NCBI GenBank assembly: GCA_017983495.1 | Contig: JAGOBH010000002.1 | Span: 620,001-684,000, forward strand | Length of the DNA: 64,000 bases | Origin: Pyrinomonadaceae bacterium | GTDB lineage: Bacteria; Acidobacteriota; Blastocatellia; Pyrinomonadales; Pyrinomonadaceae | Direction of reading: 5' to 3' | Translations under genes and position numbers: made by a program | In this document: in pieces, positions 12,400 to 26,847 of the stretch | How the letters are laid out: each line of letters begins with the position of its first letter | Numbering within the stretch: position 1 is the stretch's first letter | Notes under the pieces: generated by a model | What the model saw: only the letters and a program-made list of their open reading frames with translations | The model's database searches: none | What the model was told of the DNA's origin: nothing

Positions 12400-12476
12400 T
12401 GGTACACCCGGCAAGATTCGAACTTGCGACCCTCTGATTCGAAGTCAGATACTCTATCCAGCTGAGCTACGGGTGC
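12400..12476 (-). tRNA. tRNA-Arg (anticodon TCG)
   Basis: The minus strand folds as a 77-nt tRNA. The acceptor GCACCCG pairs with CGGGTGT, and discriminator A plus encoded CCA follow. The D arm contains AGCTCAGCTGGATAGAGT, the anticodon arm TCTGA-CTTCGAA-TCAGA has TCG at positions 34-36, and the T arm carries GTTCGAATC. The first acceptor pair is a G-U. TCG reads CGA and other CGN arginine codons. Confidence 0.95.
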
Positions 12477-22689: not shown

Positions 22690-23592
22690 ATGGATACTAT
22701 TACCGTCGACATTGAAGAGATCAGGAGTGCGACCGCCCGCGACAAGGCGGTAGCATATTTCGAGTTAACTAAGCCACGCATAGCATTTTTGTTGGTGCTG
22801 ACCTCAGCCGCTGGTTTTTATTTGGGCACAAAAGGTCCGTTCGACTATATTCTTTTCGCAAATGCGATGGCCGGGATCACGTTACTGGCGTTCGGCGTCG
22901 CGACCCTTAATCAATTTGTTGAACGTGCGATCGATCCGTTAATGGACCGCACCGCCACTCGGCCGCTACCAACGAGTCGGGTGTCGTCGGCCGAGGCCTT
23001 CATATTCGGCGTTGCATTATGTGCAGGGGCTGAAGCTTATTTACTCTTTCTGGTAAATGGCCTTACGGCATTGCTTGGCCTTGTCGTGATCGTTGGCTAC
23101 GTTTTGATCTATACGCCGTTGAAGACTCGAACCAGCGCGTCAACCGCAATCGGAGCGATTCCCGGGGCACTTCCACCGTTGATGGGCTATACCGCCGCCG
23201 CGAATGGGATTGACTTGTTTGCATGGGCATTGTTCGCTATGCAGTTCTTATGGCAATTTCCTCATTTTCTGGCGATCGCCTGGATGTATCGCGATCAGTA
23301 TAGGGCTGCAGGAATCAAGATGCTGCCTGCTGTCGAACCCGAAGGGCGGATAACATTTCGGCAGATAGTGTTGTTCACCATCATGTTGGTGCCGGTGAGT
23401 TTGGCTCCGTTCTTTTTTGGAAGGGCCGGCTTTATATTTTTGGTTGGGGCGTCGATCCTCGGTCTCTGGTTTTTAGTCGAGAGCATCAGAACCGCTCGAT
23501 CGAAGACCAACGGCTCGGCTAAGCGCCTTCTGATGGTCTCCGTTATCTATCTACCGCTTCTGCTTCTGCTGATGGTTGCTGATAACCGCTAA
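22690..23592 (+). CDS. ctaB: Protohaem IX farnesyltransferase (haem O synthase)
   Basis: Adds a farnesyl group to protohaem to make haem O for the haem-copper oxidase. A 300-residue UbiA-type membrane protein of about eight or nine spans. The first Asp-rich site reads NQFVERAIDPLMDRTATRPLP (first Asp of the common NxxxDxxxD replaced by Glu), and the second site includes the WMYRDQYRAAGIKMLP loop. It starts the plus-strand group ctaB - subunit III - DUF420, with only 4 bp before the next gene. Confidence 0.93.
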   Translation: MDTITVDIEEIRSATARDKAVAYFELTKPRIAFLLVLTSAAGFYLGTKGPFDYILFANAMAGITLLAFGVATLNQFVERAIDPLMDRTATRPLPTSRVSSAEAFIFGVALCAGAEAYLLFLVNGLTALLGLVVIVGYVLIYTPLKTRTSASTAIGAIPGALPPLMGYTAAANGIDLFAWALFAMQFLWQFPHFLAIAWMYRDQYRAAGIKMLPAVEPEGRITFRQIVLFTIMLVPVSLAPFFFGRAGFIFLVGASILGLWFLVESIRTARSKTNGSAKRLLMVSVIYLPLLLLLMVADNR

Positions 23593-23596
23593 ACAC

Positions 23597-24304
23597 ATGA
23601 AGATCGGTACTGCTGACATCCAAGACAGAATCGGCGATCCCGATCCGATTAGGCCGCCGGTTGGCGGAGGCTCGTCGGCTGGCGGATATGATCCCGGTGG
23701 CGATCCCGGGCATCGGGGTGGTGACGATGATGTTGATACCCAGTTGTTTACGCCTGAAAAGTTTCGCATTCTGACGTACTTTTTGCTATTGATCGTGCTA
23801 ATGACATTCGGCGGGTTGATCGGCGCGTATGTGGTGATCGCAACGAATAACGTAGCGGAATGGACACCGTTCGCGTTGCCGGTTCAGGTTTGGCTTAGCA
23901 CTTTGCTGATATTTGCTAGCAGTGTGACTTACTACCTCGCCGAAAGAGCAGTTAGAATCAATGACCATACTAAAGGCAAGAACTTTCTCCTTGCAACAAC
24001 GATACTTGGGGGCGTCTTCATTGCTTCGCAACTACTAGCTTGGATCGAGTTGTCGCGCCGCGGACTGTATATGCAAGGCAATCCTTATGTCGGATTCTTT
24101 TACTTGCTGACTGCGGTTCATGCTGTGCACGTTATAGGTGGTATTACTGCATTGGCCACCATTTTGTTACGTTCGTGGTATCCAACGTCGTCAGACGAGA
24201 TCATTGCAAAACGCGTTAACCTGGCCCAAGTCGTTGGATGGTATTGGCACTTTATGGGGCTGCTCTGGATCGTGCTCTTTGTTCTACTTGGCTACTGGAA
24301 GTAA
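23597..24304 (+). CDS. Haem-copper oxidase subunit III
   Basis: A membrane protein of 235 residues from ATG 23597 (an upstream in-frame TTG inside ctaB is unlikely). The first 50 residues are hydrophilic, Gly/Asp/Pro-rich and unusual for the family. Five membrane spans follow, with the characteristic YFLLLIVLMTFGGLIGAYVV, the lipid-site region GFFYLLTAVHAVHVIGG and the ending WYWHFMGLLWIVLFVLLGYW. It is a structural subunit of a terminal oxidase; subunits I and II are not in the window. Confidence 0.9.
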   Translation: MKIGTADIQDRIGDPDPIRPPVGGGSSAGGYDPGGDPGHRGGDDDVDTQLFTPEKFRILTYFLLLIVLMTFGGLIGAYVVIATNNVAEWTPFALPVQVWLSTLLIFASSVTYYLAERAVRINDHTKGKNFLLATTILGGVFIASQLLAWIELSRRGLYMQGNPYVGFFYLLTAVHAVHVIGGITALATILLRSWYPTSSDEIIAKRVNLAQVVGWYWHFMGLLWIVLFVLLGYWK

Positions 24305-24305
24305 A

Positions 24306-24755
24306 ATGTTTGACCTTTTAGCAATTTTCCCGCATCTCAATGCTGCCCTTAACGCCCTGTCGGGTGTGTTTCTGGTGGTCGGCCTCTACTTCATCCTTAG
24401 CAAGCAGGTCGCTCGACACCGCTTCTGCATGCTGGCCGCATGCACGGTGTCCGTCGTCTTCCTAACATCGTATCTGACCCATCACGCTATTAGAACTTAC
24501 TATTTCGGACTGGGCCCTACGAAATTTACAGGCGAGGGGATCATCAGACCGATCTATTTCACGATTTTGACCTCGCATACGATACTTGCTGCCTTAGTCA
24601 CCCCCTTTGTCATTTGGACGCTAAGGCGTGCCTTAATGGGCACATTTGACCTCCACAAGCGAATGGCAAGGTTGGTATATCCAGTATGGTTATATGTGTC
24701 AATCACGGGGGTCGCCGTGTATTTGCTCCTTTATCAACTATATCCAGGCCGCTAG
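24306..24755 (+). CDS. DUF420 membrane protein, oxidase-associated
   Basis: A 149-residue protein with four membrane spans beginning at ATG 24306, one base after the subunit III stop. The conserved DUF420 pattern is present: HLNAALNALSGVFL, two histidines in YLTHHAIRTYY, YFTILTSHTILA and LHKRMARLVYPVWLYVSITGV. The His residues are arranged like metal ligands, and DUF420/CtaM-type proteins are needed for maturation of some haem-copper oxidases. Last gene of the ctaB group. Confidence 0.85.
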   Translation: MFDLLAIFPHLNAALNALSGVFLVVGLYFILSKQVARHRFCMLAACTVSVVFLTSYLTHHAIRTYYFGLGPTKFTGEGIIRPIYFTILTSHTILAALVTPFVIWTLRRALMGTFDLHKRMARLVYPVWLYVSITGVAVYLLLYQLYPGR

Positions 24756-24777: not shown

Positions 24778-24807
24778 TTGTACTGCCCGTTCCTTAGGTG
24801 GTATTCT
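24778..24807 (+). promoter_or_regulatory. Candidate promoter for the riboswitch RNA
   Basis: TTGTAC (24778-24783) and TATTCT (24802-24807) are separated by 18 bp, a fair sigma-70-type match. Transcription would start near 24814, just before the riboswitch. Not tested; read-through from the oxidase genes is possible as well. Confidence 0.45.
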
Positions 24808-24821
24808 ATCAATGTTGAAAA

Positions 24822-24972
24822 GTTGATCACCGAAGCCGTCTCACTGTGAGACGACACGGGGGAACCATTGGTATGGCGAATTTCGCACTACCGGGGGCGA
24901 AGCGTTCCGAATAGCGGACGCAGGGATACTCTTTCGTTCCTAGCCCGACAGCTAACCTCGTAGGTGTTGCAA
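24822..24972 (+). ncRNA. Cyclic di-AMP riboswitch (ydaO/yuaA class)
   Basis: The plus strand carries the conserved blocks of the ydaO/yuaA aptamer in the right order: ATCACCGAAGCC, ACGGGGGAACCA (24855-24866), CGGGGGCGAAGC (24892-24903), CGCAGGGATACTC, then CCCGACAGCTAACCTCG ending in TAGGTGTTG. The 5' CACC can pair with the 3' GGTG to close P1. This class binds c-di-AMP and normally sits in front of cell-wall hydrolase or transporter genes and switches them off. Here nothing is encoded downstream on the same strand: the next gene is convergent. The orientation is certain from the motif order. A candidate promoter is just upstream and a terminator about 100 nt downstream. Confidence 0.88.
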
Positions 24973-25013
24973 AGAAGTTACAGCAAGAGATTATGCCGAA
25001 TCGGCGCGATTTT

Positions 25014-25056
25014 GATGTGCTTCCCGCTCTGAACTTTCAACATGGAAGCAGACATC
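25014..25056 (+). other. Hairpin whose loop complements the RNA 5' end
   Basis: GATGTGCTTCC (25014-25024) can pair with GGAAGCAGACATC (25044-25056), with a small internal bulge. The enclosed loop contains AACTTTCAACAT (25032-25043), which is complementary, with one bulged base, to AATGTTGAAAAGTT at 24811-24824, immediately 5' of the riboswitch. This may be part of the expression platform or of a stand-alone RNA fold. Seen directly; the function is inferred. Confidence 0.5.
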
Positions 25057-25071
25057 CGGTCTTCTCAAAGG

Positions 25072-25107
25072 AAAAAGTTCCGTCAAGCGATTGACGGAAC
25101 TTTTTTT
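25072..25107 (+). terminator. Bidirectional intrinsic terminator
   Basis: A 14-bp perfect stem (AAAAAGTTCCGTCA / TGACGGAACTTTTT) with a 6-base loop AGCGAT is followed by more T. It ends the riboswitch transcript on the plus strand and, by symmetry, the M1 peptidase transcript coming from the right. Confidence 0.9.
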
Positions 25108-25120
25108 GCTTGTATCCCCT

Positions 25121-26830
25121 TTATTTGCGAACGTATCTGATCGGGAGAACCTTTACGTCCATTGCCGGAACTTTTGACAACGGGTCGATCTCGATAGACA
25201 GTGGCCGGGCCATCGACTTGAGCGAGAAGGTCTCAGTTCGTGCGGTTACAATTATGGGCGTTGTCTGCGACGCCCGATCCATCTTCAACACCACGTCGAT
25301 TGGCAATCGAAATGCCGCCGGGACTAACCGGTCTGTCTTCTGCAATTGCGTTACGGTCAACCTTAAGAGTTTGGTGCTCGAGCTGTAAACGCCGCTGACA
25401 GTAATCTTCGGGACCCCCGCTTTATAGACCCACTGATCGAAGAACCAATCGAGTTTTTGCCCGGACGTTTCCTCCATAGCCTTTTGCAGGTCGACGGTCT
25501 CTACTGACCCAAACTTGTGTCGGTTAAGATAAAGGGTGACAGCCTTCCAGAATGCGGCATTTCCGATCTCTTCACGCAGCATGTGCAGCACAACTCCCCC
25601 CTTGTTGTAGGTCACCGACGCATTATCGAAAAGCTTATCGACTTCGCCCGCCCGCTGGTTGAAAAGACCATGCCGGCGCTTAGTTACGGCGTCGTCACCA
25701 ATAAAGGTTGCTGCATCCGACTTTACCTTTTTGATATAATCCTCGCGGCCGATCCTGGCTTCCCGGTAAACTGCTTCCATATAGGTTGCGAACCCTTCGT
25801 TAAGCCAAAGCTCTGCCCAGTTCCTGCAGGTGACAAGATTTCCAAACCAGGAGTGTGCGAGTTCGTGGGAGACCAGGTCCGTAACGATTGGCTTTCCAAA
25901 ATCGAAGTCACCGAAGAATATCTCGTTATCCGACATCGTCGTAGCCGTAATATTCTCCATTCCCCCAAACTGGAATGACGCGACAATAGTTTGGTCATAC
26001 TTGTTAAACGGGAACTTAACACGGGTGAACTGCTCGAATATCGGGATCATCTCTTTTGTCTGAGTAAATGCGTTACGACCGGTTGTTTCTTTACCTGGGT
26101 AAACGTAATAGCCCAACGGAATTTCACCCATCGTATCGTCTAAGCGAACGTATTTGCCGATTACGAATGAGACCAAATAGGTCGAGTGAGGCACCGGCAT
26201 CTTTAAATGCCAAGTCGTAGTGCCATTTCCATTGTCGGTCTTACCGAGAAACTCGCCATTACCTATAACGGTCTCGCCGCTTTCTGCAGTTATCAATGCC
26301 TCGGTCGTTGCCTTGTCGCTTGGAAAATCAAACGACGGAAACCAATGCCTTGCCTCCTCAGGCTCTCCCTGGGTCCATATCTGCGCCGAATGATTCACCC
26401 GATTCGGATCATCGACCGCATCGACAAAATAGACGCCTTTTTTAGGCGTGGCTGAGTACTTAAATCGGACCGAGATCGTATCCATTGGCCCGTAACTTCG
26501 GTCGAGAATGACACGAATCGTGTCAGCTCTGACGGTATATTTCAGCTCAGCACCGCCGGGATCCAGTGTTACTGATTGAAAAGCCAACCCAACTGCGTCG
26601 AGTTCAAACTCCCTGAACCCTTCCGCCAATGGTTTCAGAACGACGGTTGTATCGCCCAATACACTTTTCGCGCTACGGTCAAAACTCACTCTGAGAGTAT
26701 AGTGTTGGGCATCGAACGTGGAAGAACGGTTAAAATTCGGAAGGCCAGCGGGCTGACCGAAAGAAAAAACGGCCGCAAACAATGCGATTGCGGCCGTAAG
26801 GAACAATTTCCTAATATGAATGGATCTCAT
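25121..26830 (-). CDS. Exported M1-family aminopeptidase
   Basis: A zinc aminopeptidase of 569 residues from ATG 26830 (an in-frame TTG at 26839 would add three residues). The signal peptide is about residues 1-23 (ends FSFGQ). GGMENITATT is the substrate-anchoring GxMEN variant, and the zinc site is His322-Glu323-x-x-His326 with Glu345 18 residues on (HELAH...NEGF). A catalytic Tyr is expected in the VTYNKGGVVLHML stretch. It lacks the long C-terminal helical domain of PepN, so it is a short M1 form ending in a beta domain. It lies 17 bp after the S9 peptidase gene in the same operon and would trim exported peptides. Confidence 0.93.
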   Translation of the reverse strand: MRSIHIRKLFLTAAIALFAAVFSFGQPAGLPNFNRSSTFDAQHYTLRVSFDRSAKSVLGDTTVVLKPLAEGFREFELDAVGLAFQSVTLDPGGAELKYTVRADTIRVILDRSYGPMDTISVRFKYSATPKKGVYFVDAVDDPNRVNHSAQIWTQGEPEEARHWFPSFDFPSDKATTEALITAESGETVIGNGEFLGKTDNGNGTTTWHLKMPVPHSTYLVSFVIGKYVRLDDTMGEIPLGYYVYPGKETTGRNAFTQTKEMIPIFEQFTRVKFPFNKYDQTIVASFQFGGMENITATTMSDNEIFFGDFDFGKPIVTDLVSHELAHSWFGNLVTCRNWAELWLNEGFATYMEAVYREARIGREDYIKKVKSDAATFIGDDAVTKRRHGLFNQRAGEVDKLFDNASVTYNKGGVVLHMLREEIGNAAFWKAVTLYLNRHKFGSVETVDLQKAMEETSGQKLDWFFDQWVYKAGVPKITVSGVYSSSTKLLRLTVTQLQKTDRLVPAAFRLPIDVVLKMDRASQTTPIIVTARTETFSLKSMARPLSIEIDPLSKVPAMDVKVLPIRYVRK

Positions 26831-26847
26831 AGTAATCAATTAACGAT

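Follow-up and report, generated by a model that had tools for sequence, protein, structure and literature searches.

A conserved c-di-AMP aptamer RNA with its own promoter and terminator in Pyrinomonadaceae, predicted to act in trans

The aptamer locus and its elements

The window (the whole 64,000-nt stretch of Pyrinomonadaceae DNA analyzed here) carries a c-di-AMP aptamer of the ydaO/yuaA class on its plus strand, between a ctaB-cox3-DUF420 gene block and a convergent peptidase gene. The elements of the locus are the following.

22690-24755, plus strand: left neighbors ctaB (UbiA), cox3 and DUF420, assigned by Pfam, with synteny in nearly all relatives
24778-24807, plus strand: promoter, with -35 TTGTAC (24778-24783) and extended -10 TGgTATTCT (TG 24799-24800, TATTCT 24802-24807), at the same place in 63/63 homologues
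24813-24822, plus strand: likely RNA 5' end UGUUGAAAAG, pairing with the loop at 25035-25042
24818-24981, plus strand: c-di-AMP (ydaO/yuaA) aptamer, RF00379, full-length
24928-24936, plus strand: aptamer loop ACUCUUUCG, expected to form the class pseudoknot with the 3' tail, placed from the sequence and the solved construct (PMC5393176)
24971-24977, plus strand: aptamer 3' tail AAAGAAG, with CUUCU (25061-25065) as alternative partner (tail alignment, RNAalifold)
24994-25043, plus strand: variable hairpin region from the homologue alignment, containing the loop AACUUUCAACAU (25032-25043), a complement of the 5' end
25050-25062, plus strand: small hairpin AGAC-AUCCG-GUCU, present as GAC..GUC with a variable loop in 56/64 homologues
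25059-25070, plus strand: near-invariant GUCUUCUCAAAG, the signature of the RNA and a candidate seed or protein site
25072-25107, plus strand: intrinsic terminator with a 15-bp stem and U-run, usable by the convergent gene too
25121-26839, minus strand: convergent M1 family peptidase (Pfam PF01433, E 1.2e-51), the commonest right neighbor, outside the RNA

The only tRNA of the window, a tRNA-Arg (anticodon tcg), lies far to the left at 12400-12476 on the minus strand.

The aptamer was recognized in a first-pass annotation, which proposed a covariance-model search with RF00379. This search matched the locus over the entire model (positions 1-134 of 134; E 4.4e-16) with 76.8 bits, above the gathering score of 38 bits, so the locus belongs to the family. 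It is the single RF00379 copy found by a genome-wide covariance-model search of the 4.0-Mb genome. In this class, c-di-AMP binds the aptamer, and a solved construct shows a stable pseudoknot and two ligand sites (PMC5393176); from our own reading of the construct's sequence, the pseudoknot partners appear to be the loop and the 3' tail. The corresponding pairing has 5 bp (UCUUU/AAAGA) in the window and in most of its genus, and at least 7 bp in several other genera, with a group mean of 6.2 bp versus 5.9 bp after shuffling. Among 62 aptamer tails, AAGAAG is almost invariant.

A generic sigma-70 scan of the locus returned no promoter above the scan threshold, and the promoter call therefore rests on comparison among homologues. 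All 63 homologous loci have a -35-like TTG, a spacing of 17-19 nt and a -10 element, usually with the extended TG, that ends 4-7 nt before GTTGAA. Matches to the promoter consensus average 8.7/12 in these 63 loci versus 5.3 +/- 1.9 in shuffled flanks, which supports the promoter-like pair first noted upstream of the aptamer. GTTGAA itself marks the predicted 5' end in 63/63 group members and, as GUUGAA, pairs with a downstream UUCAAC; in the window, 24813-24820 pairs with 25035-25042 over 8 nt. The Watson-Crick run between 5' end and loop has a mean of 8.05, as opposed to 4.73 +/- 0.94 for shuffled 5' ends, reaches at least 7 bp in 53/62 loci, and survives a U-A to C-G change in L029, L031, and L057. 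The complementarity between hairpin loop and 5' end seen at first reading is thus real and retained in relatives.

Behind the aptamer follows a conserved 3' module of about 110 nt. Stem sequences of its variable hairpin are clade specific, yet TTCAAC is retained in 53/63 loci, with a clear hairpin presenting it in only about two-thirds of the homologous sequences. The CUUCUCAAAG stretch follows the small hairpin and precedes the terminator. With one mismatch allowed over its first eleven bases, the signature GTCTTCTCAAAG was found in 60/63 loci of the window type, in 0/26 transporter-type and 0/17 FAD-type riboswitches, and in 2/51 others, both of these being copies of this RNA from genus g24. 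The ordinary, cis-acting riboswitches for c-di-AMP in Pyrinomonadaceae lack both UUCAAC and GUCUUCUCAAAG. A hidden small protein was considered and rejected, as all three reading frames through GTCTTCTCAAAG are open at similar frequency (45, 39, and 41 of 62) and no conserved peptide is encoded.

The terminator reads AAAAAGTTCCGTCAA-GCGA-TTGACGGAACTTTTT followed by a T-run. Its hairpin is also present in homologues, and in the RNAalifold alignment, 10 of the 11 aligned stem pairs carry compensatory changes on both sides, in agreement with the strong terminator first proposed to end the unit at 25107. This hairpin was missed by a simple terminator scan of the locus, the likely reason being that the U-run belongs to the stem. 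The related loci L029, L030, and L057 retain the long hairpin with a poor U-run. The resulting 293-nt RNA folds with z = -3.45, and lengths across loci range from 211 to 321 nt (median, 292 nt). With its own promoter, an intrinsic terminator and no conserved reading frame, the RNA has the attributes of a small RNA.

Distribution and genomic neighborhood

RF00379 matches were obtained in 43 of 60 relatives and in 101 of 119 genomes of the family. Relatives with a name are Pyrinomonadaceae, Chloracidobacterium, and Acidobacteriota MAGs. Within the family, the matches split into ordinary cis copies and the type found in the window. The latter was searched with a covariance model built from the part behind the aptamer (the 3' module) and occurs in 65 of 162 genomes of the class, all of them Pyrinomonadaceae, spanning ten genera and including 38 of the 41 genomes of the window's own genus. 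Each carrying genome has essentially one copy; further matches to the 3' module in the window's genome were weak and resembled unrelated terminators. In genus g24, the tail model scored 57.0 and 45.5 bits, and the RNA lies at two other sites.

Cis copies precede genes for either a 665-aa transporter-like protein or an FAD/NAD(P)-binding protein; others, in some genera, are close to a KdpA or AA_permease_2 protein. One transporter-like protein was tested (L064:109-2106) and had no sequence match in Pfam, NCBIfam, or PDB. The window's genome encodes two homologues of this protein (L226, C16; L227, C7), neither with an RF00379 match. FAD/NAD(P)-binding genes are preceded by c-di-AMP riboswitches, most with clear terminators, in L060, L044, L045, L046, and other loci, and in L036 an AMP-binding enzyme follows; to our knowledge, no such target has been described for this riboswitch class. 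In some genomes of the family (G134, G069, and G077), the number of c-di-AMP riboswitches reaches four or five. In relatives, the first hairpin of the stand-alone RNA (GUGUGCUUCGC; 24994-25030 in the window) is similar to the FAD-type terminator (GUGUGCUUCAC), and judging from this likeness, the hairpin may be an old terminator that has since lost its role.

Nearly all window-type loci lie directly 3' of ctaB-cox3-DUF420. From the DUF420 stop codon to the RNA 5' end, the median distance is 54 nt (62 loci), which leaves space for the promoter only. The left neighbors are different in genus g24, where the RNA still faces convergent genes.

On the right, the 65 loci include two at contig ends, leaving about 63 with a neighbor. 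This neighbor is convergent in about 50 of 63, including the window, where the M1 peptidase gene is the convergent gene announced by the first-pass annotation and the co-directed downstream gene expected of a cis-acting riboswitch is missing. The M1 peptidases form a cluster of 36, all convergent and two of them more than 600 nt distant, in the window's genus and most other genera; their stop codon is at most about 40 nt from the terminator in most loci. The plus-strand call for L093 in the neighbor table is an open reading frame antisense to the M1 gene (tblastn). Other convergent neighbors are SpoIIE/GAF (n = 6), DUF3142-like (n = 3), and M48 peptidase (n = 2) genes and single genes for a DPP-type peptidase, an outer-membrane efflux protein, DUF2784, a deacetylase-domain protein, and an endonuclease/phosphatase-domain protein. 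About nine loci have a co-directed neighbor, and these neighbors fall into six or more unrelated kinds: D-Ala-D-Ala ligase (n = 3), FG-GAP (n = 2), M28, SRAP, a Panacea-containing region, and one gene 612 nt away. As the right neighbors vary while the RNA stays, no downstream gene accounts for its conservation. The comparison of relatives proposed at the outset produced no frame-shifted plus-strand gene, the convergent M1 peptidase being usual in most of the ten genera.

The three ligase loci (L022, L039, and L043) have ddl, a cell-wall gene, co-directed at 126-141 nt behind the RNA terminator. There, the 5' arm of the terminator is strongly complementary to the upstream RNA (-18 to -20 kcal/mol; z -1.7 to -2.4), and the RNA may have gained a target in cis in this clade.

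Possible modes of action

From comparative sequence evidence, we favor, with moderate confidence, the reading that the locus encodes a small RNA of about 290 nt, transcribed independently and ended by an intrinsic terminator; this RNA joins a c-di-AMP aptamer to a conserved 3' module and is predicted to act in trans. Since usually no gene lies behind the RNA, its target is probably located elsewhere in the cell; the RNA is also probably c-di-AMP responsive. Two readings had been offered initially, a stand-alone RNA and a relic of a cis riboswitch; the conservation of promoter, aptamer, tail, and terminator across the family favors the former and speaks against the latter.

In the proposed mechanism, c-di-AMP binding would lock P1 together with the pseudoknot of the aptamer, both the 5' end and the 3' module would refold in response, and the exposure of CUUCUCAAAG would change; this stretch would then work in trans by pairing with mRNAs or binding a protein. 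Competition of CUUCU for the AAGAAG of the aptamer tail might be the switch step, which is a guess: RNAalifold predicts the competing helix, and compared with shuffled tails it is not above chance (5.4 versus 5.5 bp). Hfq, which could assist such mRNA pairing, is encoded in the window's genome. The genome also has a diadenylate cyclase domain but no other c-di-AMP riboswitch, and the RNA may thus be the sole RNA route for the signal. A genus-wide search for perfect complements of the signature 12-mer gave no conserved site, with hits about as frequent as those of the reversed control pattern, and any mRNA pairing would therefore be shorter or imperfect.

Another explanation, unlikely in our assessment but least so for the ddl clade, is a riboswitch governing read-through, in which low c-di-AMP lets polymerase pass the terminator; the product would be an antisense RNA of the convergent gene, or a sense mRNA of ddl in some clades. 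The closeness of the M1 stop codon to the terminator at most loci, and the three genomes with a co-directed ligase gene and a terminator arm complementary to upstream RNA, are in line with this idea, as is the norm of the class, in which the ligand promotes termination (PMC9960051). Two actinobacterial c-di-AMP riboswitches without a canonical terminator have also been described (PMC9960051). Against read-through, the downstream gene varies freely while the RNA is constant, and the conserved motif is positioned outside the terminator. An arm-duplex test for an antiterminator gave no general signal in the group (mean z -0.8) and none in the cis-acting controls either, and therefore carries little weight.

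It is less probable still that the RNA is a 3'UTR element of the ctaB-cox3-DUF420 operon, serving the c-di-AMP-dependent ending, stabilization, or processing of that mRNA, or else a small RNA derived from that 3'UTR and provided with a promoter of its own. The operon precedes the RNA in nearly all relatives, and the approximately 54 nt in between are too short for another terminator, but this synteny could be passive, the RNA's own promoter is conserved, and genus g24 has other left neighbors.

A c-di-AMP sink or a purely structural RNA without a regulated target would suit the self-contained fold, the strong terminator, and the empty search for perfect 12-nt complements in the genus; we consider it very doubtful, as there is one copy per genome and the invariant GUCUUCUCAAAG would be unnecessary. 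A relic left by gene loss, suggested by the missing co-directed gene in the window, is very unlikely given the family-wide conservation, with ten genera maintaining the promoter, compensatory terminator changes, and near-invariant motifs.

Relation to known riboswitches

The usual view of riboswitches places them inside the messages under their control. An aptamer RNA that is conserved, starts and ends at signals of its own, and is tied to no fixed neighbor would show that the sensor can be an independent regulator. The stand-alone small RNA favored here could be, as a family-wide, ligand-gated, trans-acting RNA, the first c-di-AMP riboswitch that is its own gene and signals to distant mRNAs or a protein, although our confidence in this broader claim falls somewhat short of an even chance. 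A search of part of the literature turned up no c-di-AMP aptamer RNA that stands alone and is retained across a family. The aptamer class itself is already known, and so are aptamer-bearing trans-acting RNAs for B12 and SAM (PMC6794450). About 65 natural versions make the questions of ligand binding, target, and switching directly testable.

Known RF00379 members gate the adjoining gene, as in Bacillus subtilis ydaO/kimA and Corynebacterium glutamicum nlpC (PMC9960051). The present RNA shares with them the full-length aptamer above the cutoff, a downstream terminator and, as a candidate pairing, the class pseudoknot of loop and 3' tail, and differs in that it usually has no adjoining gene and adds the conserved 3' module of about 110 nt.

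In Listeria, Rli55/EutX contains a B12 riboswitch within a trans-acting RNA, and the ligand shortens Rli55, removing the EutV-binding part (PMC6794450). An aptamer in an RNA working away from an adjoining gene is common to both, for the present RNA as a prediction. Unlike in Rli55, terminator and aptamer here appear as one RNA of fixed length. SreA and SreB are leaders of real downstream genes, whereas the present RNA usually has none. These SAM riboswitches act in trans on prfA (PMC6794450), and in both cases a terminated riboswitch RNA acts on another mRNA, as is proposed for the present one. The Sinorhizobium meliloti RNA RZ, which derives from a SAM-II riboswitch, likewise combines an aptamer with a terminator and is classed as a small RNA, with the difference that RZ is the attenuated leader of metZ (PMC9373788).
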